Origin: Macrolepiota albuminosa
Lineage: Eukaryota; Basidiomycota; Agaricomycetes; Agaricales; Agaricaceae
Direction of reading: 5' to 3'
DNA: 64,000 bases
Assembly (NCBI GenBank): GCA_027475525.1
Contig: JAMWFC010000049.1
Location: 3,270,947-3,334,946, forward strand
The notes beneath the pieces are model-generated. The model ran no database searches. It was not told the DNA's origin and saw only the letters and a program-made list of their open reading frames with translations. Position 1 is the stretch's first letter. Each line of letters starts with the position of its first letter. The position numbers were made by a program, and so were the translations under genes. Below are positions 1,581 through 24,827 of this stretch, piece after piece.

Positions 1581-1784
1581 TGTAAGGATGTGTCAATATA
1601 CCTTAGTTAAAGCCCGGGGTTATGCTTAAGCCCCTATTGACTGGAGCTAGGATGGTACTAGTTGACAACAATAAGCAAATAGTAACACGGGACTATGGTG
1701 TAATGGTAACATGCGATGCAGGTTCAAGTCCTGCTAGTTCCAGCTTTCCTGAGGTTGTCGGTTCAATCATCAGGAAGTGTTACA
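1581..1784 (+). repeat. Left LTR of TRIM
   Basis: This is a 204-bp LTR with TG...CA ends. It contains a GC hairpin near 1617-1635 (GGGG...CCCC) and the tRNA-like module at 1689-1742. Confidence 0.85.
1689..1742 (+). ncRNA. tRNA-like module lacking an anticodon arm (left LTR)
   Basis: These 54 nt fold as a truncated cloverleaf. The acceptor strands GGGACTA and TAGTTCC pair over 7 bp (one G-U) and are followed by a single A discriminator. The D-arm is GTGT/ACAT, and the T-arm is GCAGG/CCTGC around a TTCAAGT loop. Only about five bases sit where the anticodon arm should be. The A-box-like TGGTGTAATGG and B-box-like GGTTCAAGTCC could recruit Pol III. The D-arm sequence resembles fungal tRNA-Gln. 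No CCA is encoded. It cannot act in decoding. A competing helix is possible: CTGGAGCTAG at 1641-1650 is complementary to CTAGTTCCAG at 1734-1743. Confidence 0.65.
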
Positions 1785-1993
1785 TTTGGCGGAACTACAG
1801 TGGCTGTGCTAGCCTTGTATGTTCGTGACCAAGCCTGCGTCATGATCTAGGTTGATCCGCTGACATAAGGTGGCCTTTACCCTGGGACCTATAAGTCATG
1901 AAATACCGGATGCATGGTCTGTGATCAGGATAAGGTACAAGGAGGGCGCACTTGAGATCCTGAGACTTGCCGGAACAAGTCTAGAGGGGAGAG

Positions 1994-2188
1994 TGTAAGG
2001 GTGTGTCAATATACCTTAGTTAAAGCCTGGGGTTATGCTTAAGCCCCTATTGACTGGAGCTAGAATGGTACTAGTTGACAACAAAAAGCAAATAGTAACA
2101 CGGGACTATGGTGTAATGGTAACATGCGATGCAGGTTCAACCCCTGCTAGTTCCAGTTTTCCTGGTTCCATCCTCTGGAAGTGTTACA
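1994..2188 (+). repeat. Right LTR of TRIM
   Basis: This 195-bp LTR matches 1581-1784 except for scattered substitutions and a shortened segment just before the terminal GTGTTACA. It retains the tRNA-like module at 2102-2155. Confidence 0.85.
2102..2155 (+). ncRNA. tRNA-like module lacking an anticodon arm (right LTR)
   Basis: This is the same 54-nt fold as at 1689-1742. The only differences are in the T-loop and its flank (TTCAACC instead of TTCAAGT). The 7-bp acceptor and 5-bp T stems are intact, so the structure has been kept or has decayed slowly despite divergence elsewhere in the LTRs. Confidence 0.62.
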
Positions 2189-5890: not shown

Positions 5891-6124
5891 TGTAGCGTAG
5901 TCCGCTATGTGGCGTTGGCCACATAGCGTTACTTACTGTATATTAGTACATATTATATTATATTTATTATAATATAATATTTATTTACATTCGTATATAA
6001 TTAGTTATTCAGCTGCTTACAAAGCAGCTTATTTTGTTGTAAACTACATTGTCAATAGACCGGTCTGGTCTGATTCAGTGTTGTGTGCACACTAAGCTCC
6101 CACAAATCCTGTAACTTCGTTACA
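5891..6124 (+). repeat. Left LTR of element 1
   Basis: This 234-bp LTR has TGTAGCG...TTACA ends. It contains a short hairpin-forming AGCTGCTTACAAAGCAGCT (6011-6029) followed by TTATTTTG, and an AT-rich core (5950-6000). It is identical to 16861-17094. Confidence 0.95.
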
Positions 6125-6255
6125 TTTTTTTGAATCCGCCAGCTAGGATCTATTGCCTAGCATCCGACGTCAGTCGTTGAGTTCGTTGACAGAACTCTAT
6201 CAGCTTCTCGAGCTTCTTGCACAGCCACACCGTGCAAATTTCAAACAGGGGATCG

Positions 6256-9200
6256 ATGAGTAATCCCATACTTGCAGCGCCCACTGACGGCGGGCGAAAT
6301 GCCCACGATCTACGGGGAGACCCAGCAGACATCCAGGACGCGTCAGCGTCCAATGCGGGTCAGGTAAGACCCAAGGCTCGAGACCGAGGTCAGAGTACCG
6401 ACCTAGCCGGGAATGAGAGCGAGGCCCGGAGAGCTGAAAGCTCACAACAGGACGGCCCGCAACGCCTCCAGGACAAGATGCCCGGGGGATTAACGCCCCC
6501 AGTTACGCAGCTGCCAGGAGGACCGCGACGGTCTAGCCGACTGGCTTCCAAAGGACCTCCACAGGACGGCCGACAGTCAACCGGCGCCTATGGCGCCCCA
6601 GGAGACGCCGAGTCGTCAGTACGGACTGGGAGAGCCCTCCCTACGAGCCGGAGCAGTGGGACCAGGCGGTCCACAGCGGGGCCAATGCCTGCTAAAGTAG
6701 CGGAAGCCCGCTTAGAAGAGGTACCGGAGGAGGCTGCAAGGCCTGAAGGATACAGCGCGGAAGATCGATTTCCACGCACACCAGCAGTGGAGGAAGCTCC
6801 GGAGGTTGTAGAGCTTCCAGAGGAGGTGATGGAGTCGTCAAGTGACGACGACGCCGGAGCAGAGGAACAGCGGCTGAAAACCGCGTACACCGTGCGCTTG
6901 CAGGTGTTCTGGGACTTGCACCCAGAGGTGATGAAATACACCACCCAAGCGCGACTCGAGCGCTACGCGTCAGCCCATATAGTAGCACTTAGGCGACAAG
7001 GGCACGAAGTGCCCAATGTATTCAGTACGAAATATACTGATTTAATGGTGAGAGTGCTCACTATGGAGCTGCAAATGTATGTGCAGCGTAAGGCCACACG
7101 GCAATCGGGGGTCTCGACCCCCTGGAGCCACACGTCCGAGGAATGCTCGGCACGACGCAATCAAGACGTCGGAATCGAGCTAGTGGAGGCACTAGCACGG
7201 GTGCAAGAAGTGCCCGAGGTAAGACCGGTGAGTACTTTTTATACTCCAGCAGGACAAGGGTGGCGTGAGGAGCCCCCGCACATGCGTAACCATGACCGTA
7301 GGACAGATATGTCAGGTCCGGATGGGCACAATAGCACTGTGCTCAAAGTGGAAAGCGAGGCATCCGTGATGCCGCGCGTGCCCATGGCCGAAACGTTGAG
7401 CGACAGAGTCGCGTACCAACGTATGCGCAATGGCGACCTCAGGACTAAGGGACAGTCCCTTATAGACGATCAGGGCATCGTATTCGAGGGCACTAAGCCC
7501 ATTGACGAGATGCGTCGTCAATTCGTCATGCAGGGTCAGGAGAATCAAGCTTCTCCAGGTCCAGGGCGGCGCAACGATCATGATCGAGGAGACTTCCTCG
7601 ATCGAGATGGCGCCACGAGACGTGATGTCCCTGGTAACGGCCGGGATGACGGCCCTAGGTCGATTCCTCGAGACGAGGGCAATTATGCCCACAGTCGAGG
7701 AGGCTCGGGACGTCCCCCGCAAGGTGGACGGGGAAAGTCACTTCCCCAAGCCGCTGATTTGGCGACTAGATCCCCGGGTCAGCGGGAAGCCATCCGAATG
7801 CATCGTGAAGCCATGCACGATCGCCTGCATCGAGTAGTCGATGATGCCCTGGGCGTAACCTTACGGTTACCAGACGGAGTGAAGCTGCGTAAAGCAGACA
7901 GTAGGCACATTCGCGCCTATACAGGCACGTCCAAGTTCAGCGACCTGGAAGATTGGGCGATGGATGTATGCACCCATCTTGCCATGTGCTTATACGGAGG
8001 TGACCGTATGGACCGAGAACGAATTTTCGTTCTGCCTGAGTTCTTGGCCGGAGAGGCCATGGGATGGTTTCGACGGGCAGTACTGCACGTCAACCGTGTC
8101 CAATATGACTGGACGTTTAAAGGAGTCCTTACAGGACTGTACGATCGATTCGTACACCCCTCAACGCTCCAGGATGCAAGGCGGGACTTCCAGTCCGCCA
8201 AGTACACCAAGAAGTTGGGAGTACAAGGGTTCTATGATACCCTTAATGACCATGCCCAGAACATGGCAGTATACCCAGACGGGTATACAATGCTCGAAAC
8301 GTTCTTGGATGGCATTCCAGCGGAGATGCGCCGCTATTTGATACGTGAGGACGGCTTGTCCCCAGAAGTCAACGATGTGGAAGAATTCGTGGCATATGCC
8401 ATCCGGTATGAGCAGTCGCTGAAGACTGCTAACCACTACGAACATTGTAGTGGACACAAAGGGGGATCCAGGCGACTACCGCCTGGTGGGACGCCCTCAC
8501 GGGGTCAGCATGTGGGGACCTTCCTGGCCAAGAAGACCGATCTGGATCGTGACCGCAACACGCGGTTTGTTGTACGCAAGACCCCTGTTGCGAACCGAGG
8601 GCGGAGCCGCCTACGCCCAGAACGGGCGCCGGACAGAGAACGTCCTAAATCAAGGCCGGACTTTAAACCGGCCAACCCACCAGGTCAGACGGGGACTTGT
8701 TTCGCGTGTGGCCAACCAGGCCACTACGCTACCAACTGCCCTGCAAAGCCAGGACCCCTGAGGAAGGGGTATGCACCCCGCGCCCACCTTCGAGCTGCAC
8801 ATACTGCAGCCGCAAGTGGGAGTGACGGAGACGTATCTGCCGATTCTGAGGCAGAGAACCCCACAAACGACCAGGAGCCCCCAGAGGAGGCATCGGGCGC
8901 CGAGCCCGAGAGTGTGGTCGTGGAGGGGGAGGAGTACGTCACAGTCGACGTATATGACGACGTCTACGACAATGAGTACTACAGTCGCAACAGCGACTCA
9001 GAGTGCCTAGCAGCGATGATGGACTGGCCATCCACAAATGATCCCGAACGGAATAACGTAGTTCGGATGAAGAAGGTGACCCTTCGTCGTGCAGAGGGCA
9101 CTTTGCAGCGCCCTACATTGAAGCGAGCAGACAAGGAGTGCCTGGTCTCGTATGTGGACGTAGACGGCCACAAGGCATGGACCCTATGGGACTCTGGGAG

Positions 9201-9567
9201 TACCACATCGGGCATAACGCCCCAGTTCGCCCATGTGTACGGAATATCCGTGCAGGAGTTGGATACGCCATTGGCGTTACAGCTGGGCACCGTAGGGAGC
9301 CGAGCCATGGTGCAATACGGGACAAATGTGAATGTCCAAACGCCGGGCTCACGTAGCCGTGAATACATGGATGTAGCAAACTTCGATCGCTACGACATGA
9401 TACTGGGAACGCCATTCATGCGGCGTAACAAAGTCATATTAGACTTTGACCATTCTCAGGTGCTAGTGAATGGGAAAGTGATCCCAGCCGAGCGAGCTAC
9501 AGCAGACGACATTGATAATCGTCTGCGACGTCATCGCACTACGGAGAAACGCAAGGACTCTCCATGA
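6256..9567 (+). CDS. gag: Gag-protease polyprotein of element 1
   Basis: The protein is 1103 residues from the ATG at 6256; the frame is open further upstream but without ATG. The N-terminal third is acidic, Pro/Gly-rich and low in complexity. The middle (about residues 530-750) holds the capsid-like domain, conserved in the second element. A CCHC zinc knuckle (CFACGQPGHYATNC) starts at about residue 815 and should bind the RNA genome. The C-terminal part is a retroviral-type aspartic protease: catalytic DSG at about residue 979 (LWDSGSTTSG) and the flap/ILGTPF motif about 80 residues later. It ends at UGA (9565-9567), after which the same frame continues into pol. The protease thus lies in Gag rather than Pol, and must cut both products. 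Confidence 0.93.
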   Translation: MSNPILAAPTDGGRNAHDLRGDPADIQDASASNAGQVRPKARDRGQSTDLAGNESEARRAESSQQDGPQRLQDKMPGGLTPPVTQLPGGPRRSSRLASKGPPQDGRQSTGAYGAPGDAESSVRTGRALPTSRSSGTRRSTAGPMPAKVAEARLEEVPEEAARPEGYSAEDRFPRTPAVEEAPEVVELPEEVMESSSDDDAGAEEQRLKTAYTVRLQVFWDLHPEVMKYTTQARLERYASAHIVALRRQGHEVPNVFSTKYTDLMVRVLTMELQMYVQRKATRQSGVSTPWSHTSEECSARRNQDVGIELVEALARVQEVPEVRPVSTFYTPAGQGWREEPPHMRNHDRRTDMSGPDGHNSTVLKVESEASVMPRVPMAETLSDRVAYQRMRNGDLRTKGQSLIDDQGIVFEGTKPIDEMRRQFVMQGQENQASPGPGRRNDHDRGDFLDRDGATRRDVPGNGRDDGPRSIPRDEGNYAHSRGGSGRPPQGGRGKSLPQAADLATRSPGQREAIRMHREAMHDRLHRVVDDALGVTLRLPDGVKLRKADSRHIRAYTGTSKFSDLEDWAMDVCTHLAMCLYGGDRMDRERIFVLPEFLAGEAMGWFRRAVLHVNRVQYDWTFKGVLTGLYDRFVHPSTLQDARRDFQSAKYTKKLGVQGFYDTLNDHAQNMAVYPDGYTMLETFLDGIPAEMRRYLIREDGLSPEVNDVEEFVAYAIRYEQSLKTANHYEHCSGHKGGSRRLPPGGTPSRGQHVGTFLAKKTDLDRDRNTRFVVRKTPVANRGRSRLRPERAPDRERPKSRPDFKPANPPGQTGTCFACGQPGHYATNCPAKPGPLRKGYAPRAHLRAAHTAAASGSDGDVSADSEAENPTNDQEPPEEASGAEPESVVVEGEEYVTVDVYDDVYDNEYYSRNSDSECLAAMMDWPSTNDPERNNVVRMKKVTLRRAEGTLQRPTLKRADKECLVSYVDVDGHKAWTLWDSGSTTSGITPQFAHVYGISVQELDTPLALQLGTVGSRAMVQYGTNVNVQTPGSRSREYMDVANFDRYDMILGTPFMRRNKVILDFDHSQVLVNGKVIPAERATADDIDNRLRRHRTTEKRKDSP

Positions 9568-9576
9568 CTTGGCCGG
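9565..9576 (+). promoter_or_regulatory. Putative readthrough stop between gag and pol (UGA-CUU-GG)
   Basis: A single UGA separates gag from pol in the same frame. The codons after it (CUU GGC CGG CGC AGA GUG CCG) have no stop, and no AUG occurs for many codons. UGA followed by CU is a known leaky context. The second element has UGA-CUA-G at the same place. Confidence 0.72.
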
Positions 9577-12500
9577 CGCAGAGTGCCGACCGTGGAGGAT
9601 GGGGAGGAGGAAGTGCAGGCTAGGCCTGGACTAAGCGCAGACCACAACGTGGTAATGATGAGCGAGGAGGAGTATCAAGCCTCCAAGAGGAGCAACGAGC
9701 GAATAATCGCTCCCGAGATTCGAGGCGCAAGGCCTCCAGACAAACGCCATCGCAAGGCGAGACGACGGGAGGACTCAGTGGACGTATGTCCACCTACGTC
9801 CTCACGAGTCAAGTTGGAAGACTTGAAAGACAGCATTCGAGAGGCGGAAGCCTCAGTAGAGGGGGACACACGGTCTCTATGGGAACGACCAGCTCCCCTA
9901 CCGGAGTACGACTGGGCATACGACCCCCGAATGCCGCAAGAGTGGAACGAGCTGGTGGCAGCCACGTGTGCGCGAAATGCGCACCAGAGACGGATGACCG
10001 TCCAACCAGCGTATCGCCAGCCAGCCTCGGACGAGGTGTCCATAGCGTACTCACTTGTACGTGAGGGAAGAAGCCTCGTGGCTTATAAGACAGCGGCAGC
10101 GGGTGCTCCGTTGAGACTACATATACCCGATGACAGTGTCAATCGGGTGCTCGCAATGCGCGAGCAGTATGCACCGCCGCCTCGACCACCCTCAGAGACG
10201 GTGGAAGTACTTCCCCCGGTACGCATGAAGGGGAAGCAGAAGGCGACAAGCCTTTGTGAGGAAGATATTCCTCGGTTGCGTCAGCAATGGCAAGAAGAAT
10301 TCGCCGACATGGTCAACGGGACCAAGGAGGAGCTGCCGCCATGGCGGGAGGTGAACCATGAGATTAATCTCATAGACGAGAGCAAGCAGTATAAGTACCA
10401 CTTGCCGCGCTGTCCGCGCGCCCTCCAGGAGCAACTACGCGATAAGACTAATCGCTATTTGAATGCTCAATGGTGGTCCCCATGCACCACCGCTCAAGCT
10501 GCACCGTTATTGTGCATCCCGAAGAAGGATGGAACCCTTCGAACAGCTCTTGATGCGCGTCAGCGCAATGACAATACTATAAAGGATGTAACTCCTTTAC
10601 CAGATCAAGAGGTGATCCGGGAAGACGTGGCTCGGGCAAAGTATCGCTCGAAGATTGACCTTACTGACGCTTACGAGCAGGTGCGCATTTGCACCGAGGA
10701 CGTACCCAAGACCGTATTTGCGTCGATCATGGGTACATTCACGAGCAATATAATGCAGATTGGAGACTGCAATGCTCCAGCAACTTTCCAGAGGCTAATG
10801 ACCTCTATCTTCCGAGACGTAATAGGACGTTTCATGCACGTCTACTTAGATGATATATTCATCTACTCGGATACTATGGAGGAGCATGAGCAGCACCTCA
10901 GAGTCGTATTTGAACGACTGCGCAAGTACAAGTTGTACTTGAAGTGGAAGAAGTGTGAGCTTTACGCTCAAAGTATAGACTGCCTAGGGCATGTCATTGA
11001 TGAGCAGGGTATCCACCCTGATCAGGACAAGCTCGATCGCATTCGGGAGTGGCGAACGCCCCGAAACTACAATGACATCCAACGATTCGTTGGTCTTGTC
11101 AATTACATATCGAGCTTCTTGCCCGATGTTACAGCCTATACAGGGCCACTTATGGCCATGACGCAGAACGGATCACCGTTCAATTGGAGGCCGTTACACC
11201 AGCGGTGCTTCGAGATGGTCAAACGGATCTGTACGAAGACTCCGGTGATTCGACCAATTGACCCTAGGCGGGACGAGCCAATATGGCTAATTTGCGACGC
11301 GTCCAAGACAGGCGTCGGAGCCATGTACGGCCAGGGAAGCAGCTGGCAGACGTGCCGTCCAGCAGGGTTCATGTCGAAGAAGTTTACGACGGCCCAGCAA
11401 AACTATGCAGTGCACGAGTTGGAGACTCTTGCCATACTCGAGGCTCTCCTCAAGTGGGAGGATAAGCTGATGGGATACCCCATCCACATCATAACGGACC
11501 ACAAGGCCCTTGAGTTCTTTAAAACTCAGGTGAACTTGTCGCCGCGTCAGCGACGGTGGATAGACTACATGTCGAGATACCAGTTCGACATCACCTATGT
11601 TAAAGGTGAACTCAACAAAGTGGCAGACTGCTTGTCACGCTACTTTGAGAGTGATGTAGTCGGGGAGGCTCACGAGCCTCATGAGTATGTGCAGGCAGAC
11701 TGCCGCATAGACCCTGATGGAGAGAATTTACCTCTCCACCGATACCAGGAGCTCAGGGAGCATGTCCTGGAAGTACGCGCTATGCGTGTTGATGAACGGA
11801 GGCGAAGCACTCGCCTCAGAGAGCAGCGCGAAGAACGGGACGTAGCCGCCCATTTGCTCAAGGAGCATGAAGCCGTGGATCCAGCGTCCACTAGGGAGCA
11901 CGAGCACCACGATGTACCCGTTACGCTTGCGGAGATGCTCGAAGGCGAATTGCCTTCATCCCAGCCTCCTAGCCTGGTCAATGACAACTTCCGGCAGGAG
12001 GTGGTGCAGGACTATGGCAATGATCCTCTCTTCGCCGAGATAATCGCCAATCCTGACGACCATCCTCGGTTCAGGCATGAGCCTGGTGGAATCATCACGA
12101 CGGAGAACCGTCAAGGGGTGGCAGTGGTATGCCTCCCCCGTGCGCGTACCATTGTTACGCGGGTCTTGGACCAGGCCCATGCCCTGGTGGGGCACTTTGG
12201 TGCCGCCCGGACATTGGGCTACATCCGGCGATGGTATTGGTGGCCACGTATGGCCCAAGAAGTGACTAAGTTTTGCGCGTCCTGCGCAGCGTGCCAGAGG
12301 GCAAAGTTGCCCCCTGGATCCCCTCTTGGGAAGCTACACCAGCTACCCGTGCCGGTGAAACCCTGGGACTCAATTGGAATGGACTTCGTAGGTCCCTTTC
12401 CCGAGTCCAGAGGGTTCGATTACCTCTGGGTAGTCATATGTCGTATGACAAGCATGGTGCACCTCATACCGGTGCGAACTACGCTGACGGCTAAGGAGCT

Positions 12501-13470
12501 GTCGTGGATCTACCTGAGGGAGATCGTTAGGCTGCATGGGCTGCCTAGCACCATTGTGAGCGATCGTGACTCAAAATTCACGTCTCAATGGTGGAGAGAA
12601 CTCCACAAACTGCTAGGAGCGCGACTCCTCATGTCGACATCCTTCCATCCTCAGACGGATGGGCAGACAGAGCGGGTTAACCGCAGTATAGGTCAGATTT
12701 TGAGGGCAGTTGTTCGCCCTGACCAACGGGACTGGGTGGACTGGTGTCCACTCACTGAGTTCGCGATTAACGCGAGTATCTCGGAGACCACAGGGTATGC
12801 GCCCTTTGAACTCAACGGAGGGTACTTGCCCTCCATGCTGCACGAAGTTCGTGCTGATACGGTAGCTCACCGTGGAGTTGTCGAGTTCGCCAGGCAGGCC
12901 CTGGAGAACATCGCGGCGGCGCATGACGCCATCATAGAGGCGCGAGTCTTCCAGGCGAAAAACGCCAATCACCGTAGGCGAGCAGACCCGCCAATAGCAG
13001 TAGGAGCGTTGGTCTATCTGTCAACGCGTAATCTGAAGCTCCCAAAGGGACGGGCGAGTAAACTCTGCCCAAAATGGGTAGGCCCATACCGCGTCCTAGA
13101 CGCAGAGCCAAGTACCTCCAACTACGTGTTGGAGCTGCCTCTGGCGTTACAGGAACGACGCATCGTTCCTAAGTTCCATGTGTCGCTGTTGCGACCTTAT
13201 AGCGCGTCTGATGATGCGCTGTTCCCTAACAGGGCGACCCCGGGCCCCTATGATTTTGGGGCTCGAGACGACGACAAATGGTTCGTCGAGTGCATAATTG
13301 GGCACCGGTGGACTGAGCGTAACACGCTCAAGTTTGAGGTACGATGGTCCCTGGGGGACACAACATGGGAGCCACACTCCCATTGCTCCAAGCTAGCGGC
13401 ACTTGACCGTTATTTGGAGTTGAAGGGCGTTAAGCGCCCACATCAATTAAGTAAGCGTGCCGGCGCTTAA
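9568..13470 (+). CDS. pol: Pol: reverse transcriptase, RNase H, integrase, chromodomain-like tail
   Basis: The segment is 1300 codons, open from the codon after the gag UGA. It lacks a nearby AUG, so I infer translation as a Gag-Pol fusion. An acidic linker of about 240 residues precedes the RT, which has KIDLTDAYEQVRI and the catalytic YLDDIFIYSD (about 10842-10871). RNase H follows (ICDASKTGVGAMY, ITDHKALEFF, KVADCLSRYF). The integrase has an HHCC finger (HALVGHFG ... CASCAACQRAK), a D,D(35)E core (GMDFVGPFP, VSDRDSKF, FHPQTDGQTERVNRS) and a GPYRVL-type C-terminal region. The last 60 residues (FVECIIGHRW ... FEVRW ... TTWEP) are a chromodomain, which in chromoviruses directs integration. 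It ends with TAA at 13468. Confidence 0.95.
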   Translation, partial: LGRRRVPTVEDGEEEVQARPGLSADHNVVMMSEEEYQASKRSNERIIAPEIRGARPPDKRHRKARRREDSVDVCPPTSSRVKLEDLKDSIREAEASVEGDTRSLWERPAPLPEYDWAYDPRMPQEWNELVAATCARNAHQRRMTVQPAYRQPASDEVSIAYSLVREGRSLVAYKTAAAGAPLRLHIPDDSVNRVLAMREQYAPPPRPPSETVEVLPPVRMKGKQKATSLCEEDIPRLRQQWQEEFADMVNGTKEELPPWREVNHEINLIDESKQYKYHLPRCPRALQEQLRDKTNRYLNAQWWSPCTTAQAAPLLCIPKKDGTLRTALDARQRNDNTIKDVTPLPDQEVIREDVARAKYRSKIDLTDAYEQVRICTEDVPKTVFASIMGTFTSNIMQIGDCNAPATFQRLMTSIFRDVIGRFMHVYLDDIFIYSDTMEEHEQHLRVVFERLRKYKLYLKWKKCELYAQSIDCLGHVIDEQGIHPDQDKLDRIREWRTPRNYNDIQRFVGLVNYISSFLPDVTAYTGPLMAMTQNGSPFNWRPLHQRCFEMVKRICTKTPVIRPIDPRRDEPIWLICDASKTGVGAMYGQGSSWQTCRPAGFMSKKFTTAQQNYAVHELETLAILEALLKWEDKLMGYPIHIITDHKALEFFKTQVNLSPRQRRWIDYMSRYQFDITYVKGELNKVADCLSRYFESDVVGEAHEPHEYVQADCRIDPDGENLPLHRYQELREHVLEVRAMRVDERRRSTRLREQREERDVAAHLLKEHEAVDPASTREHEHHDVPVTLAEMLEGELPSSQPPSLVNDNFRQEVVQDYGNDPLFAEIIANPDDHPRFRHEPGGIITTENRQGVAVVCLPRARTIVTRVLDQAHALVGHFGAARTLGYIRRWYWWPRMAQEVTKFCASCAACQRAKLPPGSPLGKLHQLPVPVKPWDSIGMDFVGPFPESRGFDYLWVVICRMTSMVHLIPVRTTLTAKELSWIYLREIVRLHGLPSTIVSDRDSKFTSQWWRELHKLLGARLLMSTSFHPQTDGQTERVNRSIGQILRAVVRPDQRDWVDWCPLTEFAINASISETTGYAPFELNGGYLPSMLHEVRADTVAHRGVVEFARQALENIAAAHDAIIEARVFQAKNANHRRRADPPIAVGALVYLSTRNLKLPKGRASKLCPKWVGPYRVLDAEPSTSNYVLELPLALQERRIVPKFHVSLLRPYSASDDALFPNRATPGPYDFGARDDDKWFVECIIGHRWTERNTLKFEVRWSLGDTTWEPHSHCSKLAALDRYLELKGVKRPHQLSKRAGA

Positions 13471-13572
13471 TTTGATCGGCAGTGCCGATCGCAGCTTGGC
13501 TGAGTTGGTCAGCAGCTGTGGCTGAAACACGTCTTAAAAGGCGAAATTTCTTTTTCGCCTTTTTTCCCAACC
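13471..13572 (+). promoter_or_regulatory. Pol-ORF3 spacer with two strong hairpins
   Basis: The 102-nt gap between the pol stop and the ORF3 ATG contains the near-perfect palindrome GATCGGCAGTGCCGATC (13473-13489) and the stem AAAAGGCGAAA / TTTCGCCTTTT (13536-13546 / 13553-13563) ending ten bases before the ATG. These may govern reinitiation, internal initiation or an RNA boundary. The role is inferred from position only. Confidence 0.55.
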
Positions 13573-14847
13573 ATGGACAGCATGCCCGTGGACATGAGTG
13601 ATCAGCAGCAGCAGCAGCAGCTACAGCAGCAGCAATTTGAGAGTACGCCGTCGGTCTTACTGTTGGCTGAAGGGGGGGGGCAGATGGCTCCCCCGCTGAC
13701 CCAAAATGCGCCCCAGTGGGGACAATCGCAACAGGCGGTGGGCTTCCCACAGCAGCAGCAACAACCAGCGGCGGGCTACCCGCCGCAGCAGCCGGTGATC
13801 AGTGGCTATCCGCCACTTCAAACCATGCAGGGCAACTTCATGCCCCAGAACGCACCTGTGGGCGGCTATCAGCCCCAACAACCAGCATCGGGCGCTTATG
13901 CGCCACATCACACCGAGGGCCAATTCCAGCAACAGGCCTACGGGGGGCTATTCAGCCCCCAAGCAGCGCCGGCATGGAGGCAGCTTGCCCCTGTACCGGC
14001 AACAGGGCAACTGGGGACACATCCTTTTCCCCAGTTTACCGCCCCGGCGCACTACCCTGGGATGGGTGGTGTGCCCGTAATGATGCCGTACCCCCCGGCT
14101 TGGATGGGGGCTTGGGGCGCAATGCCCCAGTACAGCGACTCGCATGAGTCGCAAGCCAAGGGAGGCCGGTCGATTTCCCTGTCTACCACAGTACCAACCG
14201 ATAATCTAGAGGGACGCCAAGCATCCCTCGTGCAGGCCACCGCGGCCATTGAGAGAGCAGAAACTCTCAATACAGAACGAAGCATCGGATCATCGTCCGA
14301 TGCGCCGACAGAGAGCCTGGCCAAGCTCTCCTTGCTACAGCGGCTGGAAATGCCGCACCAATCCGAGCCCAGCTCGGAAGAAGAGTCACGTCCTCGACAC
14401 GACAAAGGAAAAGCACGGGCTGTCGAGCCCACTCACAGCCAGGACTTAGTCCTGGCTACCCTTCTCCAACGTCTTGGAGATAACGGGTACGATGTACCTG
14501 CAGAGTCGTCATTCCTCCGCGATGCGGAGGCAGTCGTCCTCATCTGCCGGATGATGGACGACATGGATCACATGCGCGCTCAGCGCAAAACTGATCTCCT
14601 TGCCCTTTCGGCCGCTCGTAAGCGGCAGTCTACACCCCCGAGTCGGGACACCGACTCCAGCAAAAGGGCGCGTTGGCAAGGAGTGGAGGACGCGCCCTCC
14701 CGCTCGATTACATCGAGCGTTGCTGCCCCCGGCCGGGAGGCCGGTCTAGGACGGGACATCCTTCCTTATGAAGATGTTCCTGCTCCAGCCGCCCCCCGGC
14801 TTATCCAGCGCCTCGCCAGCGGCGCGTCTGAGGTCGCGTCTTCGTGA
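13573..14847 (+). CDS. ORF3: Q/P/G-rich accessory protein of element 1
   Basis: The protein is 424 residues from an ATG in a fair context (ACCATGG). The first about 200 residues are low-complexity: Gln runs, then PQQ/GGY/GYPPQQ repeats reminiscent of prion-like or RNA-granule proteins. A conserved block around FLRDAEAVVLICRMMDDM aligns with FLVDPVAQVVITGLLDEI in the second element, followed by a basic KRARW patch. There is no signal peptide, transmembrane segment or envelope-like feature despite the env position. It ends at UGA-CCA (14845), and the same frame then stays open into ORF4. In the second element the homologous regions are one uninterrupted frame, so this UGA is either another readthrough stop or a recent nonsense mutation. 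Confidence 0.8.
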   Translation: MDSMPVDMSDQQQQQQLQQQQFESTPSVLLLAEGGGQMAPPLTQNAPQWGQSQQAVGFPQQQQQPAAGYPPQQPVISGYPPLQTMQGNFMPQNAPVGGYQPQQPASGAYAPHHTEGQFQQQAYGGLFSPQAAPAWRQLAPVPATGQLGTHPFPQFTAPAHYPGMGGVPVMMPYPPAWMGAWGAMPQYSDSHESQAKGGRSISLSTTVPTDNLEGRQASLVQATAAIERAETLNTERSIGSSSDAPTESLAKLSLLQRLEMPHQSEPSSEEESRPRHDKGKARAVEPTHSQDLVLATLLQRLGDNGYDVPAESSFLRDAEAVVLICRMMDDMDHMRAQRKTDLLALSAARKRQSTPPSRDTDSSKRARWQGVEDAPSRSITSSVAAPGREAGLGRDILPYEDVPAPAAPRLIQRLASGASEVASS

Positions 14848-14850
14848 CCA
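14845..14850 (+). promoter_or_regulatory. In-frame UGA-C between ORF3 and ORF4
   Basis: This single UGA (followed by CCA) is all that separates ORF3 from ORF4. ORF4 has no AUG until about 15095. The second element has no stop at the aligned position. A C-to-T change at a CpG (CGA to UGA) would explain it as a mutation; UGA-C also fits leaky readthrough. Confidence 0.5.
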
Positions 14851-16815
14851 GTATCCGTGGTATCCACCACGCACTCTGGGGAGCAGAGTTCCAGGGGCGT
14901 GAGCACACGCCCCACTGAGGCCAAGGCCTCACAACCCCGAAAGGATCGTCGGGGTAAGCAACCGGAAGTGCGCGCCTACGTCAATGTGCACTTCCCCGAG
15001 GATGCCCCGAAAGGGGCCCCAGGGGCTAACATCCCCTTTTTACCCACTATACTGGTAGAGGGCCTGCCAGCCCGACTCCCGCGGTGTGTGTGGGCAATGG
15101 ACCCACGTTCTGAGAAGTCGGAGCCGGAGAGGCTGCCTTCCCCTCCCTCCGACGACGATTGGTATGAGGAGCCTGAAGAGGCTCGTATGGAATCCCCAGT
15201 GCCGCACGAGACGGCGGCACAGCGTATGGCGCGCGAACGGCGCAACAGCAATCAACGAGCCAAGATGGAGCGTCGGGCGCAGAACAGCGCCAAACGAGGG
15301 GCCGCCCTCCTTGAGGACAAAACTGGGCGCATCCCTGATGCGCTCGGTGTGGTGATCTACCGTGATCACACTATTGAGCGCCAAAACTCATTCTTTGGCG
15401 CGGGGTTGGCCCCCCAATTCTATTGGTCGCCAAGGACCAATACCATCTTCGTCGGGCAAGAGGCCCGCGCAGCCAGGTCCTTCGAGGACGACAAACCGGG
15501 CAACGCCGCCGCGACGCCCCACAACAGTAAGGTGTACCAAGTTGCACCTCGCGGGTTTCCCCGCAGTCCTCGAGAAGTCCGCAGACTTCACGCACTGGTC
15601 AACAACCAGTTTACGCCGCTTCGGCAGCGTCAGTTGGGCTACCTCTTGCTCAACGAATTCAAGCGGGTGGCGCTCAACTGCCACCCTACGGCCCAAGACA
15701 GAGCTATGTCTCATTTACTCGACGAGGTCGAGTATAGGACTATCGCGGTACCCTTCGCGAGTCCAGAGGAGCGGGAGAGTTTCCCGCGAATGATTGTGCC
15801 GTCGCGGCTCTATCGCCGCAAAGAGGGAGGGAAGATTGCCTTCGTCGGCCTTACCCCCCCTGATCCAAAGCAACTATTTGCTTTGGACTACCTGGGCTCA
15901 TACGCCCTCCTCTATGGACGTCCTGGGACGTCCAATGTGTGGACCGGTCTGGCCATGGACCGAGCCATGCGCATTCATTGGCGCAGCCTCTTTGGGTTTG
16001 CGCTTGTACGCGCCCTCAGCGCCAGCCGCCCCTCTAAGGCCACGGTACACAAGTACCTGGCCTACGTCTTCGCCAGGCCAGGCCTCTATAAAGAGGCTGT
16101 GGCCGAGTACGAGGCGGCCACGGGGCGAGTCTTTGAGCCCATCCACGCCGACAACCCTACCTTCGAGGTTCGGGCTGTGGACATTCCGGAAGCGTCAGCT
16201 TCCGTGTTCTCCACTTTGGACGCGTTACGCGTCCTTCTTCACAATCAAATCCCGGTCAGCTGGGCTGACCACGCGTACACTTATGGGGTCACCTACTTGG
16301 CCCATCTATTCTTCAGCGACAGCCGGCTCTACAACGAGGCGGCTGCTATCGACGACGAGAGGCTACAACGCCTCGATCACTACGGTACACCCCAGTCCAT
16401 CCCTCAGTGGGATGGGTGGCGCGAGGCCACCATCGGCGATCGTCAACGCCTGATGCTCCAGCAGCAGGACAGTCGTCGTGCATACGACGACGCGCTCGTC
16501 AAGGGGATGTACCTCTCTATTGGGCAAGACATTCATGCCCACGAAATCTGGACGCGCCAGTACCCGTCCGACACCGGGGATCTGCCTGATCCCCAACCAC
16601 CTGTTCCGGGGTCAACCGTTGACCCCAATCTCACACTGTCCCCCCTCCGGGACTATGATGATTCCCTGCCAGTAGCAGGGCCTTCGAGTACTTCTTACGC
16701 GCCCGCACCCGAGGATGAACTCCTCGACTACGACATGGACGACGCGACTGCCGATCCATTCCGGGAGCCTGGGGGCTCTCCCATTGCCCCTGTCCCAGAC
16801 TTACCGACGGCATGA
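14848..16815 (+). CDS. ORF4: accessory domain downstream of ORF3
   Basis: About 655 codons in the same frame as gag, pol and ORF3. The N-terminal part is acidic and proline-rich. A basic helical stretch (MERRAQNSAKRG) leads into a conserved block: TGRIPDALGVVIY, QFYWSPRTNTIFVG and VAPRGFPRSPREVRRL. These align with TGRIPDGL, YYSRLTNTVFVS and VVPRGFPMNPQQLRKL in element 2. The middle (about residues 270-560) looks globular and partly helical. The C-terminus is acidic and Pro-rich. No known enzyme motif, membrane segment or signal peptide was recognised. Conservation in two diverged elements suggests the product matters to the element (packaging, nuclear import or host interaction are guesses). 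Confidence 0.78.
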   Translation, partial: PVSVVSTTHSGEQSSRGVSTRPTEAKASQPRKDRRGKQPEVRAYVNVHFPEDAPKGAPGANIPFLPTILVEGLPARLPRCVWAMDPRSEKSEPERLPSPPSDDDWYEEPEEARMESPVPHETAAQRMARERRNSNQRAKMERRAQNSAKRGAALLEDKTGRIPDALGVVIYRDHTIERQNSFFGAGLAPQFYWSPRTNTIFVGQEARAARSFEDDKPGNAAATPHNSKVYQVAPRGFPRSPREVRRLHALVNNQFTPLRQRQLGYLLLNEFKRVALNCHPTAQDRAMSHLLDEVEYRTIAVPFASPEERESFPRMIVPSRLYRRKEGGKIAFVGLTPPDPKQLFALDYLGSYALLYGRPGTSNVWTGLAMDRAMRIHWRSLFGFALVRALSASRPSKATVHKYLAYVFARPGLYKEAVAEYEAATGRVFEPIHADNPTFEVRAVDIPEASASVFSTLDALRVLLHNQIPVSWADHAYTYGVTYLAHLFFSDSRLYNEAAAIDDERLQRLDHYGTPQSIPQWDGWREATIGDRQRLMLQQQDSRRAYDDALVKGMYLSIGQDIHAHEIWTRQYPSDTGDLPDPQPPVPGSTVDPNLTLSPLRDYDDSLPVAGPSSTSYAPAPEDELLDYDMDDATADPFREPGGSPIAPVPDLPTA

Positions 16816-16860
16816 CCGTCGTATTATCTTGAGACCGTAGCTCGGTCTGATTGGGGGGTG

Positions 16861-17094
16861 TGTAGCGTAGTCCGCTATGTGGCGTTGGCCACATAGCGTT
16901 ACTTACTGTATATTAGTACATATTATATTATATTTATTATAATATAATATTTATTTACATTCGTATATAATTAGTTATTCAGCTGCTTACAAAGCAGCTT
17001 ATTTTGTTGTAAACTACATTGTCAATAGACCGGTCTGGTCTGATTCAGTGTTGTGTGCACACTAAGCTCCCACAAATCCTGTAACTTCGTTACA
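16861..17094 (+). repeat. Right LTR of element 1
   Basis: This LTR is identical to 5891-6124 over 234 bp and is preceded by the purine-rich tract GGGGGGTG. It is followed by the GTCAT target duplication. Confidence 0.95.
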
Positions 17095-17348: not shown

Positions 17349-20300
17349 TATTATAATACTTTATACTTTCCAAATTCTTCTAGTTTTGATTCTTCAAATT
17401 CTGTGATTGAATGGTTGACTAATGTTTTTAAAGATGAAAATTCCACATCTTCCTACATTGTCACTTACACAACAGGAATATTTACTGTATGCAATCTTGG
17501 AGAGAGAACATTTATTACTTTGGATTGTTACGATATTTGTTCTTCTTTTTTTCATCCTCGCAAATATTTTTCTTCATTTCGCACCTATCTGCACTATAAA
17601 AACCACCCCACATGGTTGTATTATACTCAAGATCATTATCTTGCATCTTTGAATGAACTTTCCTGTAAAGACTTAAAATCTGCATTTAATTCAGAATTAA
17701 TTATGCCTAAATGTTGGAATAAGGAAGCTCTTGCTAGCACTATTTTGTCTCACTTCTTGGAATATAGGCAGAAATGTCTTACTCTTACATCAAATCAAAT
17801 AAATGAGCAGTTATCTTCTTTTTTTCCAGATTCTTCTTCTGAAATGCTGCCTAAACTTTTTTATAACATTGCTCTTCAGTTATTTGGTGAGAAAGTTTTG
17901 CACGCTTTACTAATCCCTGAAAATCCTTTGTTACATTACAAGAATTGTCAAATACATAAGCCTGTATTGCATCAGTTGTTGGAAAATACTGAGAACGATA
18001 ATAATGTGAGCTTGTTACCTTCACAAACATTTTCAAAAAAATCATTGCGTTCTATTTTAAAATGTATTCATCCTTCTCGCCGTCCTTCTTTTGCAAAATT
18101 ACATAGTGAAATGGTAAAAGCTATTATTGAAAGCTTTCGCTCTCGGTGCAAAGCATTGATGTCTTGCAACATATCAGATATTCATCAATACATTACTTGC
18201 TTATTACCAACCTATACTATATTTCCTTCTGATTTTTTCAAGTCAGTGTGTTTGCTGTTAGAAATTGAATATAGTACTAATATATTTGTACATTTGACAA
18301 CCAGCATAAAAGTTCGAAAGCAAAATAAAAAAAAAAAAGAGCGAAATCTTCAAAAACAAATTACAATCAGTATAAATGCAAAACATCAAAGTGAAATTAT
18401 TTCTTCATGGCCAACTGTTCCTTCTGATAATCTTATTATGAACTGTGCACATAAATATCGTGAAGCAACAAATTGGATTATTCCTCTTATTTGTGCTGTA
18501 TGTGCTCGTTAGCGAGATAAGTCAATCATTCATTCCATATCAATTGATTCCAGTAGTGATCTTTATAATCTTAATTTATCTGTTCTAAAATTTTCTGATA
18601 CTCGTTTCAATAATGATTTTATACATTTGCCTCAAAATTATGCTGGGTTGATGTTAGATGTTCATGGTATTAAATCAAATCCAAATTTAATTCAAATTTG
18701 CAATGACTGTTATTCTGAATTGCGAAAGAAGCAGATTCCAAAATTTTCTTTAGTAAACAAGTTATATCGTGGAAATTTACCACAAGAATTTGCAGATCTA
18801 ACGTGGATTGAAGAAATGACATGTGCTGTTTATTGCAGTAGTGCATATGTTTCTCGTCTTTATCAATCATCAGATCCTAAGCAACCTCGAGTTTTTCATG
18901 GTAATACTTGTGCACATGACATGAATATTGTTTCAACTGCTTCAGTTCTTCCTCGAACTCCTGATTATATCAATGGATTATTATCTGTTGTATTTATTGG
19001 ACCGGGTCAGTATAAAGATAAAGCAATGAGAAATATGTTTCGAGTTCGCAAACAAAAAATTTGGGACTTCCTTATTTGGTTAAAGAATGTTGCTAAAAAT
19101 CTCTTGTATCAGAACATTGAATTAGATAAAAGAATTGTAGATTTATATCCAAAAGATGCTGTTCTTCCAGGATTGGAGGATAGACTTCTACATGATACAG
19201 AACTTTCTGTTGAAAAAACTTTTGAAGAAGAGACAGCTGGTTTATCAGATCATCCTGCATTAGAAATATGCAAATCTAACACAGATGATGAAGCTACTGT
19301 ACTTTTAGAACGTATGGGGGTTTCAGATCCTGAAAGTGTGAAAATCCAAGGTTCTTCTTTGACTGCATCAGCTTTGCGAACTCTTGTATCAAATAATAAT
19401 AAATTTAATAATGAACAACCTGATCTTATAATATATAAAGGAAATAATAAAATTAATGAATATAATAACCCGGTTTTATTTCCTGGTATGTTTCCAACCT
19501 TATTTCCTTATGGATGTGGTGGTTTTGATGATCCTAGTCGACCAACACCACTTAGTATGCAACTTCATGTAAATTATCTTATAGATCTAGCAGATCATGC
19601 TTTTCGTTATCATTATTCTTTTATATTTTTAGCTTTAAATATAATGCAGTGCAGAACTGCCCATTTTTATACAAGTTTACATGTAAAAAGCTCACGGTTT
19701 AAAGCTATTGCAGAAAAATTGACTTCAATCTCTTCTGAAACTCTTCTTTCTGTAGCAAATCAATTAGAAAAAGATTATAATTATCAATCACTTTCAGATG
19801 ACGAAAAACAAGTATTTACTCTTCTTAATGAAGTTAATACTATTGCTTCTCATGTGCCTGGTTCTCAAGCATCAAAAATAAGATGTCGGAATGAAATTCG
19901 AAATTACTCAGGATATTTTGGAATGCCTATACTTTATTTTACCGCGAATCCGAGTGCAATACATAGCCCTATTTTTCAACTTATGTATGGTGATACTACT
20001 ATTAATCTTGATGACCAGTTTCCACTTATTGTTGATAGTACTACAAGAGCTTTGAGATTAGCAAAAGATCCTGTTGCTGCAGCTGACTTTTTTTATTTTT
20101 CTATTCAATGTATGTTTCAATATCTTTTTGGGTGGGATTTTGAAAAAGGCAAAAGTTTTTCAGAGGGTGGCATTTTAGGACATCTTGCTGCATTTTATGG
20201 ATCTAATGAATTGACCGAAAGAGGACAATGGCATGCACACTTTCTTATATGGCTCATTGGTGCACCTAATCCTTCTGATATTCATATAAAACTTAAAACC

Positions 20301-23300
20301 GAAGCTGGTTATGCTCAAAAGGTATTTCAATTTTTTGAAAATATTATTCATCATCATCTTCCTAATATTGAAATAGAAATCGATCCAAAATATGAACCAC
20401 GAATCGAAAGACCTCCTCATGTACCATCTTCAAGATCTGATGAAGATATTCAAGATTGGAAAGATTTGCTTGATGTAGAAATTAAAAAATGCGGAGAAGC
20501 TCTTCAACGTCATAATTGTAGAGCTGTTTGCTACAAATTTGGAAATGATAATAAGTGTCGCTTTCGATTTCCACATGATTTTGTTCCTGAATCTAAATTT
20601 GATCCAAATACAAATTCTATTTATTTACTTTGTCAAGATCCTACTGTGAATTATTTTAATCCAATTATTCTTGTATATTGTCGCCATAATCATGATTTAA
20701 AATGTATATTATCCGGAAAAGCAGCTAAAGCAGCGATGTTTTATATTACCGACTATATTACAAAGTTAGATCTAAAAACTTATCAAATGTTGTCTCTTCT
20801 ATCTCGAACAGTTCTTAACATGAAAGATACTATAGATTCTTCAAGTTCTAAAGCTAAATCCAAATTGCTTCTTCATAAATGTTTATCTCAACTAACTAAG
20901 CAACAACAAATACATGCTCAACAAGCAGCTTGGTATATTCGGGGTCGAGGTGATAGTTTTTCTTCTCATAAAACAACACCAATGTTATCAAATCTTTTAC
21001 TTTATTATGTTAAAACTTCTATCAATGCTATGAAACATACAAATGAAAAAAATGAAGATTGTAGTGATGAAGAAAACGATATTGAACCTATATCATTAAA
21101 AATTAGTGTAGATATTAATGGAAATCTTTTAAAAGCAACTCAGATAGATGATTATATTTATCGTGATTCAGACTTGTCTAATATCTGCTTTTATACTTTT
21201 GTTCAGTGTTTTCGAAGAGAGCTTATAAGTACTTCAAAATATAAAGGTACTAATACTATACGATTAGGTGCGTATAAACGCTGGAGACTGAAAAGTCCAC
21301 ATCCTTTATGTGATACTCATGATTTAGTAGAGCATACTAATTTTGAGCGTGGAGATGGTTCTAAGCTACTTATACCTTATTTAATTGGAACAAGTATTCC
21401 TCGATCTACTCATTCTGATTATAGTATTTTTATGCTTGCTCATTTTAAACCTTTTAGTGATGTTGAACCTTTACTTCTTTCACATGAAAATCCTGATGAT
21501 GTATTCAGTATGTATAATTTTACTGAAATGTCTAGAAATATTATGAAAAATTGGGATGCTATTTATGAATGTGAGGATGAAAGAGATGCTGAGAGACTTC
21601 AAAAAAAAGAACAAGCTTTGAAAGAATCAAAAGTATTCACGGAACTAGCAGCTTCTTCAAATGATACTTTATTTATTCCAGAAAACTCAGGTCAAGTAGT
21701 TCAAAAAGATTTTCAATTAAATCAAGAACTTCTCAGACTTCAAGCAAGTGAATGGTTCTTAGTCGATGCAGAAGTTAATAAAAAAATAGACACTTCTGTA
21801 TTATTACCTGCCGTAAACATTAGTAATTTAAAGATTTGGAAAAGAGAAGTCAAACTACAAGAAGAATCTTTAAAATCTCAACGAAGGAACATTCTGGATC
21901 CTTTAAATCAGACAGCAATTATCAACAATGCATCTGAAACCGAATTAGTTTCTACTTTACCTAATATAAAATATTTATCTTCTGCTAATATATCATCAAA
22001 TGCACCTACACCTCAAACAAAAAGTTTAAATAACATTAATAATTTACACTTTGAAAGCCGTAACAATCTGATCGAGCGCATCATTTCAGAAGAAACTTTA
22101 AATGAAAAACAATCAATTGCGTTTAAAATTATTTCTAAAGCTTTTTTCAAATATATCGATGATGAAGCAGCCGGCATAAATAATGTTTTATCACCAAATT
22201 ATCAACCTTATTTGCGCCTTCATCTTTCAGGACCTGGTGGTACTGGAAAGACTCATGTTGTTAAAGCCGTACAAAGAGTTATGGAAGTTTATCAATGCAA
22301 ACAAAGATTGCGCTTTTTAGCACCAAGCGGTACTGCAGCTGCACTTATTGATGGATTAACTATCCATAAAGGTCTATCTATCAAAGTTCAGAAAAAAAAT
22401 AAAGGAAAAGGTAATCGAATACCTGGTGATTCTAAAGAAGATTATTCTGTTATAATGACCGTTGCTGAAAAAAGTAATCTTTTTGAAGAATTTAAAAATG
22501 TTATAATGCTTCTTATTGATGAAGTATCTCTGCTTAGCTGTCATTTATTATCAGATGTAGATTGCTCTTTACGAATAGTAAAAGGTAATAATGAACCATT
22601 TGGTGGAATTTTGGTCATTTTTTCAGGTGATTTTTATCAATATCCACCTGTTGGAGGAACTCCTTTGTATAAACCTGTAACAAATTCTACTAATATGTCT
22701 TCTCAGCAATTATCGACTCGTCTTGGTCGGTTAGTATGGAAATCGGTCACTGAAGTAATAAACTTGGAAGAGCAACAGCGCATGAAAAAAGATCCTGAAT
22801 ATGCTGCAGCTGTTTTACGGTTGCAAAAGAGAAAATGCACAGAGGAAGATGTTGAGTTATTCAACAGTCGAGTGATTAAATCTTTTGAAAATCCAGATGG
22901 ATTAAATATGAGTTGTAATAATAGACAACATTCAACTGCAATAGTGCAAACTAACGATCTTCGTCAGGCTATAAATTTTCAAAAAGCAAAATCCATTGTT
23001 CAAGGTAACATTGATATTTGTGCTGCGAATGACACAGTTAAAAAAAAAACAATATCAGAACCTGCTAGATCTGAACTTTTAAAACTGAATGTTTCTAAGT
23101 TTGCTAGTGAAGGCGCTTTACCTGGTTTTCTTCCTTTATATATAGGAATGCCTGTTGTTCTGCGCAATCGAAATCTATCTACTGAATTAGGTATTACGAA
23201 TGGTGCTCATGGAATATTGAAGAAATATGACATTGAAACTTGTTCATCCGGTTATACTTATTGTACTGGTGCGATTATTGAATTTCCAAGAAGCAAAGTA

Positions 23301-24827
23301 TCTCTTTCAAATCTACCTAATCAGTATTTTCCAATTGAACCTCTATCCTGGAAATTTCAACATTTAGTACAATTAGATAAAAATAATGAAAAGCAAAAAA
23401 TATCAATCATGCGCTATCAATTGCCTTTTCAACCTGCTTTTGCTATTACAGGACATGCTGCACAAGGAACAAGTCTTCCGCATATTTTAGGTTGGTTACA
23501 TCTTGGAGGTTTCGCTGCCTATGTAACAGCATCTAGAGCTACTACTCGCGAAGGTCTAGCTATAGTTCAAAAAGTCACTTTAAAAGATCTCAATCGAAAG
23601 TTGCCATCTGACTTAATTATTGAGACACAAAGGCATGAAATTATGGAGCACAATACACTTATTAGACATGGATTTAAGAAGGGTTTTATTAGAGTTGTAC
23701 CTGATCCTGAAGGTGAGGATAAACATTTAAGCAAATACTCAAATATTAATATTAAATTATCTACTTATTCTCAACGATATTCTGATAATATTCAAAATAC
23801 TCAAGATCAGTGCGAAAGAAAAGTAGATGCAGACAATAATAATAAAAGCAAAAAGAGATCTGCATCACGTAATTCATGCCGTGATTTTACCTTGCACAAA
23901 AAATTAAAGTTAGATTTTGATGAAAGTACTAATTCTATATGGCATGTTATTTCGAAAGGATGCTCATGGGATAGTATAAATTGGTCATGTGCCTATGATT
24001 CTACACTCATGTCTTTTTATTGCACTTATCTCCAAATGAATAATGAAGATCAAAATATTTGGAGCTGCTCTAATGAAACTTGCAACATTCTAAGTGATTT
24101 ATTTGCAAAACATATTAGTTTAAGCTATAATATTGATGATATCCGCAATGAATTTCGCAAATATCTTTATTATAAAAATCCAATAAAGTTTCCATTGATT
24201 GGACCTACTTTAATAAGCGCTACAGATATTGTTGACTTAATTTTTTTCGCTCCTAATATAGTTCAAAAAATGATTTATCATATATCATGCCCTTCCTGCC
24301 AATTTCTTTTAGAAGCAACTATTGACTTGCATCACATAGGTCACTGTACAAGTCCTACCGTATGGTCTAATTATGGAATTCAAGGAGACACTGAGGCAAC
24401 CACTCAGCAATGGTTAAATGCCTTTATTACAGCAGGTAAAAGGCACGCTTCCATAGAAGCTGCAACAATTATGAAAAATGGACTAGCTAATCATTCACAC
24501 ATATGTTCTGCTATTCCAAGTGAAAAAATACTTTATGCCCCAGCTCCTTTAATAATTCGACTTGATTTAGATTATATAGATGGATTCGCTACTAAAATAA
24601 TTCCTATTGTATGCTTGCCAACTCAGACAGGTTTACAGCAATATAGTGTGCGAGCTATTATCTACCAAGGTTATAATCATTTTACAGCTCGTCTTTTTGA
24701 TAATAACTCTGTCTGGAGCTACGATGGAGCTGCTTACAATGGTAGTATTGTTAAGGAAAACAACTGCATTAATTTGGAGATTTTTAATGGTAGACAGCAA
24801 CATATTGTAATCTATGCAAAAATATAG
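17277..24827 (+). pseudogene. Helitron RepHel transposase with C-terminal USP-like protease (one nonsense codon)
   Basis: One frame runs from the gypsy insertion to 24827 except for a TAG at 18510-18512. The second part (from 18627, 2066 codons) begins with a region resembling the DUF6570 found in fungal Helitrons. The HUH Rep nuclease follows: WHAHFLIW (His at codons 536 and 538) and YITDYITK (Tyr 706 and 710), the two-tyrosine motif of rolling-circle transposases. Next is a PIF1-like SF1B helicase: GPGGTGKT (about 1202), LLIDEVS (about 1298), GDFYQYPPV, EEQQRM, and motifs ending YVTASRATTREG. The last about 280 residues look like a ubiquitin-specific-protease-type cysteine protease: NWSCAYDS (Cys about 1788), a Cys pair, GYNHFTAR (His about 2018) and WSYDG. 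The 5' split by element 1 and the TAG make this copy defective. Confidence 0.9.

Follow-up and report, generated by a model that had tools for sequence, protein, structure and literature searches.

A tRNA-bearing miniature LTR element of the Helenus type with a priming site complementary to its own tRNA-like module

The copy found at positions 1581-2188 of the window (the 64,000-nt stretch of DNA analysed here) is one member of a family of non-coding LTR elements of about 617 bp. Each LTR of these elements carries a tRNA-like module, and in many of them the priming site is complementary over 11 nt to the 3' end of this module followed by CCA. The kind, a tRNA-bearing TRIM, is already known; the complementarity of the priming site to the element's own module is possibly new. 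LTR elements and retroviruses mostly need host tRNAs for the start of DNA synthesis. It is possible, although rather short of probable, that this LTR retroelement brings along the tRNA that primes it, such that a Pol III-made, CCA-tailed and anticodon-less module would prime reverse transcription and free the element from host tRNAs.

Anatomy, copies and movement of the family

The window copy is laid out as follows.

1576-1580, no strand: left target-site duplication CAGAC, matching the right one (CAGCC) at 4/5 positions; from the sequence
1581-1784, plus strand: 5' LTR, 204 nt, TGTAAGG...GTGTTACA; from direct-repeat comparison
1689-1742, plus strand: tRNA-like module of the 5' LTR, 54 nt; Rfam RF00005, 44.8 bits (gathering score 29)
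1689-1695/1735-1741, plus strand: acceptor of this module, with A box at 1696-1706, B box at 1721-1731 and discriminator A at 1742; no anticodon arm
1745-1747, plus strand: T3 behind the 5' module; the homologous place holds T4 or T5 in 24/29 full LTRs examined
1787-1797, plus strand: primer-binding site TGGCGGAACTA, preceded by a 2-nt TT spacer (TGGTGGAACTA in most other copies); complementary, with one mismatch in the window copy, to the module 3' end TAGTTCCA plus CCA
1798-1823, plus strand: collinear with the complement of the module's T and D arms, more weakly than the primer site and suggestive only; measured on copy L074
1983-1993, plus strand: polypurine tract AGAGGGGAGAG; from the sequence and copy alignment
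1994-2188, plus strand: 3' LTR, 195 nt; from direct-repeat comparison
2102-2155, plus strand: tRNA-like module of the 3' LTR; Rfam RF00005, 41.8 bits
2157-2160, plus strand: T4, the sole run of at least 4 T in the window copy and a possible Pol III stop
2189-2193, no strand: right target-site duplication CAGCC; from the sequence

A typical member has LTRs of 204 bp and an internal part of 209 bp, which places it under the Helenus size limit of about 1000 bp, and no ORF of at least 150 aa lies inside the element. Both LTRs of the window copy have TG..CA ends, and 9 gap columns and 10 mismatches separate them. The initial annotation, made from the letters of this DNA, had described a miniature LTR element with TG...CA LTRs, a polypurine tract, a near-perfect target duplication and a tRNA-like sequence inside each LTR. 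All of these are present, the duplication with its 4/5 match and both modules above the Rfam cut-off.

A genome-wide search for the whole element, of the sort suggested when the sequence was first annotated, yields at least 48 matching pieces (40 of 65 candidates scored). The internal 209 nt are present at 34 genomic places (34/34 candidates scored), of which 33 are copies that were read and one is a 45-nt fragment; solo LTRs are found as well. Exact T-arm/acceptor stretches of the module type number 76 in the genome. This is a family of elements and not a chance repeat. Forty loci were read with their flanks, and further module places (for instance on contigs C11, C44, C60, C74 and C118) lie outside that set.

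In 19 of the 40 loci, the window's included, the flanking sequence is common up to a base (on the left side only in L070). These 19 are L001-L008, L069-L073, L080, L083, L084, L094, L095 and L099, and in the window the repeat lies at about 1-2700; 16 of the places hold the internal sequence and 3 a solo LTR at the same site. Because the flanks are common, these loci represent a single insertion copied within a larger repeat, of which the window copy is an old passenger. An odd mode of replication, considered for differences shared between 5' and 3' LTRs, was rejected since the copies concerned share flanks and thus go back to that one insertion.

Outside the passenger group, 17 places with both outer ends correspond to 16 insertion events, L086 and L087 having the same flanks. 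Twelve of these events show a perfect 5-bp target duplication, four of them as solo LTRs (L096, L097, L098 and L100); one has a 4/5 match (L091) and three have none (L078, L079 and L088). L089, L090, L092 and L093, which lack one end in the sequence taken, were left out of this count. The two LTRs of a copy differ at 0 (L074), 2 (L076), 2 (L088) and up to 18 bases (L086). The identical pair of L074 indicates recent movement and, together, the 5-bp duplications and near-identical LTR pairs indicate that this movement took the integrase route.

Exact 77-bp tandem duplications occur at arbitrary places in elements L079, L081, L082, L083, L084, L087 and L088, and also in the flanks of L007 and L008 and in the tRNA-Ile pair L042/L043. 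The number of bases matching at distance 77 is 77-79 in the seven elements and 37 in L091. These duplications look like unmerged k=77 assembly overlaps rather than biology.

The tRNA-like module and its probable reading by Pol III

The module retains the acceptor (GGGACTA/TAGTTCC), D stem, T stem, A box and B box, while the anticodon arm is wholly missing. The Rfam tRNA model matches both modules when 1500 bases are searched; when the whole window is scanned under Rfam's faster filters, the first module alone is listed. ARAGORN makes no tRNA call in the window, as expected of a module without an anticodon arm. Folding of the isolated module is unremarkable, with z values of -1.54 and -0.90 for the two modules. 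Among sampled host tRNAs the nearest to the module is Gln(ttg). A full-length parent tRNA sharing the D arm of the module was also sought, and all 44 pattern matches carry LTR sequence of the family.

Absence of the module elsewhere in the family had been named at the outset as grounds for giving up the tRNA reading. The module is in fact found in 69/69 LTR pieces spanning its place in the 40 loci read, and 64 of the 69 have the 3' end TAGTTCCA. At the 21 non-passenger places, which hold 34 modules, the A box is kept in 29, the B box in 32 and the TAGTTCCA end in 31. The acceptor, D and T stems of the 20 distinct modules from non-passenger places have standard pairs in 305/320 cells. One double change is seen among these 320 cells of very similar modules; it affects the first acceptor pair of one copy and is explicable by CpG decay. 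There is little scope for covariation because the family is too young and its modules are too alike. Non-CpG deviation in 29 full LTRs from 18 loci is 1.4% in the module versus 1.5% in LTR bases 1-108 and 2.8% in bases 171-204. The 3' acceptor strand with the discriminator deviates by 0.4% in the same LTRs, which is weak evidence; the module as a whole is conserved no better than the remainder of the LTR.

In 24 of 29 full LTRs the second base after the module opens a run of T4 or T5, the only run of at least 4 T there; other such runs are absent from the 11 whole copies checked. In the roughly 30 to 60 bases examined behind each of 62 host tRNA genes sampled, the first T run is T5 or longer in 45 cases, T4 in 14 and absent in 3. 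Since the sampled host genes mostly end in T5 or longer, the T4 of the module could be leaky.

We regard it as probable that the module of each LTR, with its A and B boxes, functions as an internal Pol III promoter. Transcription would then start from the 5' module, pass its weak T4 and end at the T4 that follows the 3' module; both ends of the RNA would thus carry the module as repeated R region. This read-through and R-region scheme has a parallel in what Kojima 2024 (PMC10886601) says of Cassandra transcripts.

Downstream of the module, a possible U5 hairpin is seen at 1746-1776 and in other copies, in which TTCCTGAGG faces CATCAGGAA in the window 5' LTR or CCTCTGGAA in L074, with 8/9 pairs each. 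It holds a second B-box-like sequence, GGTTCAAT. GGTTCRATYC stands at this place in all 44 matches to the D-arm pattern, a pattern which itself selects for such a sequence.

The priming site and the source of the primer

The LTR end ACA is followed by TT and then TGG in 29/29 aligned rows, the 1-nt deletion of L087 lying further in. Of the 16 non-passenger copies that cover the core, 12 have TGGTGGAACTA exactly. The remaining four are L085 (TGGCGG), L087 (the deletion) and, each with a single different change, L090 and L093; L092 is without the start and thus outside the 16. The 16 passenger copies carry TGGCGG in 11 cases and TGGTGG in 5. Hence the primer site TGGCGGAAC first reported for this element holds as the form of those 11 copies and of L085, but the other 5 and the 12 exact non-passenger copies have TGGTGGAAC.

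The complement of TGGTGGAACTA is CCA, the discriminator A and seven acceptor bases, that is, the 3' end TAGTTCCA of the module with CCA added, 11 nt in all. This own-module complementarity is an addition to the initial account of the element. For one pre-set place, the 8 bases specified in addition to CCA would agree with the module by chance in about 1 case in 65,000 (4^-8). CANNTGGTGGAACTA occurs 18 times in 100 Mb, at 17 places, and every occurrence belongs to the TRIM family. The predicted duplex with the primer site has an energy of -21.1 kcal/mol for a 16-nt module end, versus -13.5 kcal/mol for a 14-nt end of tRNA-Ala. The TGGCGG form mispairs with the discriminator A without a matching change in any module. 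In L074, the 30 nt that follow the 11-nt core are collinear with the complement of the module to a degree equalled by 47 of 20000 shuffles, for a stretch that was chosen after seeing it; when extra complementarity is sought anywhere in the internal region, 454 of 5000 shuffles do as well, which is not significant. Past the core the primer site reads CTACAG, where a copy of the module would give CTAGCAG. Because of this one absent G, the site is not a simple copy of the module primer.

Transcripts that end behind a module may be cut at the tRNA 3' end and receive CCA, giving an RNA ending in UAGUUCCACCA that could pair with the element's primer site UGGUGGAACUA. On the strength of this pairing we propose that the element supplies its own tRNA-like primer. 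That the CCA-tailed end of the module primes at the element's own site is a possibility that falls just short of probable. Promoter function and self-supplied priming together are, tentatively, the best explanation of the module and the primer site. The anticodon arm may have been lost because only promotion, processing, CCA addition and priming were needed. If true, this would give the tRNAs of Helenus-type LTRs a second function and a reason to keep the acceptor and T arm. A single 54-nt sequence would then serve both Pol III promotion and priming, and it would be understandable that such LTRs hold a tRNA and not two boxes alone.

A host tRNA, nuclear or mitochondrial, that fits the primer site would have the 3' end UAGUUCCA or UAGUUCCG. 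Candidates were sought with T-arm patterns that assume a canonical T loop, using reversed patterns as control. The pattern TAGTTCCA with base 65 other than C has no match in the genome. NNGTTCCA has 83 (16 in the reversed control), and 76 of them are of the module type. The remaining 7, a number below that of the control, are of four kinds, and none of the representatives (one read of each) is a tRNA by ARAGORN. The TTCCA pattern has 109 matches (50 reversed), and the 100 of these that were listed include 13 further kinds, one each read, with no tRNA among them. Patterns with other discriminators have 14 matches (20 reversed) of 7 kinds, one each read, again with no tRNA gene. Rfam finds no tRNA in 20 of the 24 non-module stretches, those to which it was applied; in both control stretches ARAGORN does recognise a tRNA. 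The 53 distinct host tRNAs sampled represent isotypes other than Gly, Asp, Asn, Glu, His, Met and Trp. Of these 53, tRNA-Ala fits best at its 3' end, over 7 nt with CCA counted in, as opposed to 11 for the module, and 7 nt is also the most that any of them has in common, at whatever position, with the complement of the primer site. It follows from the pattern searches and the sampled tRNAs that the module is the sole sequence found in the assembly able to give the indicated primer end. Priming by the anticodon loop of tRNA-Tyr, as in some fungal Helenus members, was considered and rejected: the Tyr gene read shares 6 nt, and its stretch would not touch the LTR.

These searches bear on the reading that this is an ordinary Helenus, in which the module serves as Pol III promoter only, a host tRNA primes, and the fit to the module is due to chance or is the relic of a lost or diverged tRNA. 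We consider this reading possible but somewhat doubtful. It agrees with Kojima 2024 (PMC10886601), where priming is by host tRNAs and no complementarity to the own module is found in the families described; tRNA-Ala could pair over its 7 nt, and the conservation of the module at no more than the LTR level is also in keeping with it. Yet the four pattern searches give no host tRNA gene with a fitting 3' end, and the exact fit of 8 bases beyond CCA would be a rare coincidence. A primer site that fits a host tRNA, which is typical of Helenus though not defining, was not encountered among the patterns and the 53 sampled tRNAs.

The pairing might alternatively take place in cis, either as a U5-leader stem made by the 3' strand of the module and the primer site in genomic RNA, or as a Tf1-type cut and use of the segment in cis. 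Indeed, when the 136-nt RNA of L074 that comprises module, U5 and leader is folded, the predicted structure of lowest energy keeps 0/7 acceptor pairs and joins module bases 47-54 to the primer site, UAGUUCCA facing UGGAACUA; this also speaks against a free tRNA fold within the long RNA. Self-priming by a 5' segment of the mRNA is moreover, according to PMC4600332, demonstrated for Tf1 and suggested for Tj1. A Tf1-type mechanism needs the whole primer complement in the LTR, however, whereas here the LTR gives 8/11 bases and does not encode the CCA opposite TGG. Were the primer to end at the discriminator, moreover, 5 nt and not 2 would be left before the LTR. We therefore hold a cis role to be unlikely. 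Least credible is a functionless tRNA-gene fragment or SINE remnant caught in an LTR that is transcribed by Pol II: the unremarkable folding energy of the module would suit it, but its retention in every spanning LTR piece examined, the paired stems of the 20 distinct modules, the T4 directly behind it and the recent movement of the family make this very improbable.

Known relatives and the surrounding sequence

Helenus (TRIMp3) is defined by Kojima 2024 (PMC10886601) as TRIMs with a tRNA-derived sequence in the LTR, and its hosts include Agaricus, Coprinopsis and Amylostereum. The window family shares with it the TRIM structure, a tRNA-like sequence with A and B boxes in each LTR, a primer site, a polypurine tract, 5-bp duplications and an Agaricomycete host. 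Every defining feature that was tested is present, namely the size together with lack of proteins, the tRNA-derived LTR sequence, the A and B boxes, and the primer site with the polypurine tract. The 5-bp duplication of fungal members is seen as well, perfect in 12/16 non-passenger events and 4/5 in the passenger event. The family is thus almost certainly a Helenus-type TRIM. The initial annotation rightly recognised a TRIM whose LTRs each hold a tRNA-like module, the equivalent for tRNA of what Cassandra is for 5S rRNA; its view that this was a distinct, undescribed design does not stand, the published Helenus class (PMC10886601) being just this and extending to Agaricomycetes.

Two differences from Helenus deserve mention. 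Kojima's families receive anticodon-based isotype calls, while the window element has no anticodon arm. Furthermore, Kojima 2024 (PMC10886601) describes fungal primer sites as mostly of the anticodon-loop type, with a 3'-end site in only several fungal families, and reports no complementarity between LTR tRNA and primer site; the window family has a CCA-type site complementary to its own tRNA-like 3' end. The family thus belongs to the Helenus type and departs from it in the fit to its own module. The literature searched, most subscription papers lying outside it, yielded no report of an LTR element that uses a tRNA-like sequence of its own as primer.

Cassandra is primed by a host tRNA. Like the window family, this plant TRIM has a small-RNA gene as promoter inside its LTRs and possibly an R region in that module, but the gene is one for 5S rRNA and the hosts are plants; cmscan of the element region gives no 5S rRNA match. 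With Tf1 and Tj1 the family would share a primer taken from the element's own RNA. Theirs is an encoded 5' mRNA segment, and the elements are autonomous, whereas the window family would use a CCA-tailed tRNA-like end. Ty1 makes contacts with the T and D hairpins of its primer beyond the primer site (PMC5454406). The short primer site and extra T/D-arm contacts are a likeness, on weak evidence for the window family, though the Ty1 primer is the host initiator tRNA. Finally, tRNA-derived SINEs also possess Pol III A and B boxes, but not the LTRs, primer site, polypurine tract and fixed 5-bp duplications seen here.

As a non-autonomous Helenus-type TRIM, the element would depend for its movement on another LTR element's reverse transcriptase and integrase; Kojima 2024 (PMC10886601) infers that Copia elements move the fungal Helenus members. 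The search for an autonomous partner found no element sharing the internal sequence or the primer site with CANN context. The first Gypsy element of the window was rejected as a partner, there being no TGG primer site behind its LTR. This 11.2-kb element at 5891-17094 has LTRs at 5891-6124 and 16861-17094 and the duplication GTCAT; after pol it carries two long ORFs, 13573-14847 and 14857-16815, the second without a Pfam match. A Copia gag also lies within the window. Of 3 homologues to an ORF of the window, the single named one comes from Termitomyces, which together with the Helitron and Copia genes points to a basidiomycete host, probably an Agaricomycete.

Thirty tRNA loci with 1.5-kb flanks show no tRNA inside an LTR-like direct repeat, their sole direct repeats being those of a single tandem tRNA-Ile pair of 77 bp that appears in two of the loci. 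tRNA genes read by ARAGORN as Ser(cga) form facing pairs about 2.9 kb apart, with at least 3 pairs (L050-L055, contigs C26 and C92). Within the window, identical 32-nt repeats at 2534-2565 and 2662-2693 enclose an 18-nt inverted repeat (2577-2614), and 18627-24827 is taken up by an ORF for a Helitron helicase, 2066 aa long, in which DUF6570, Helitron_like_N and PIF1 domains are recognised.
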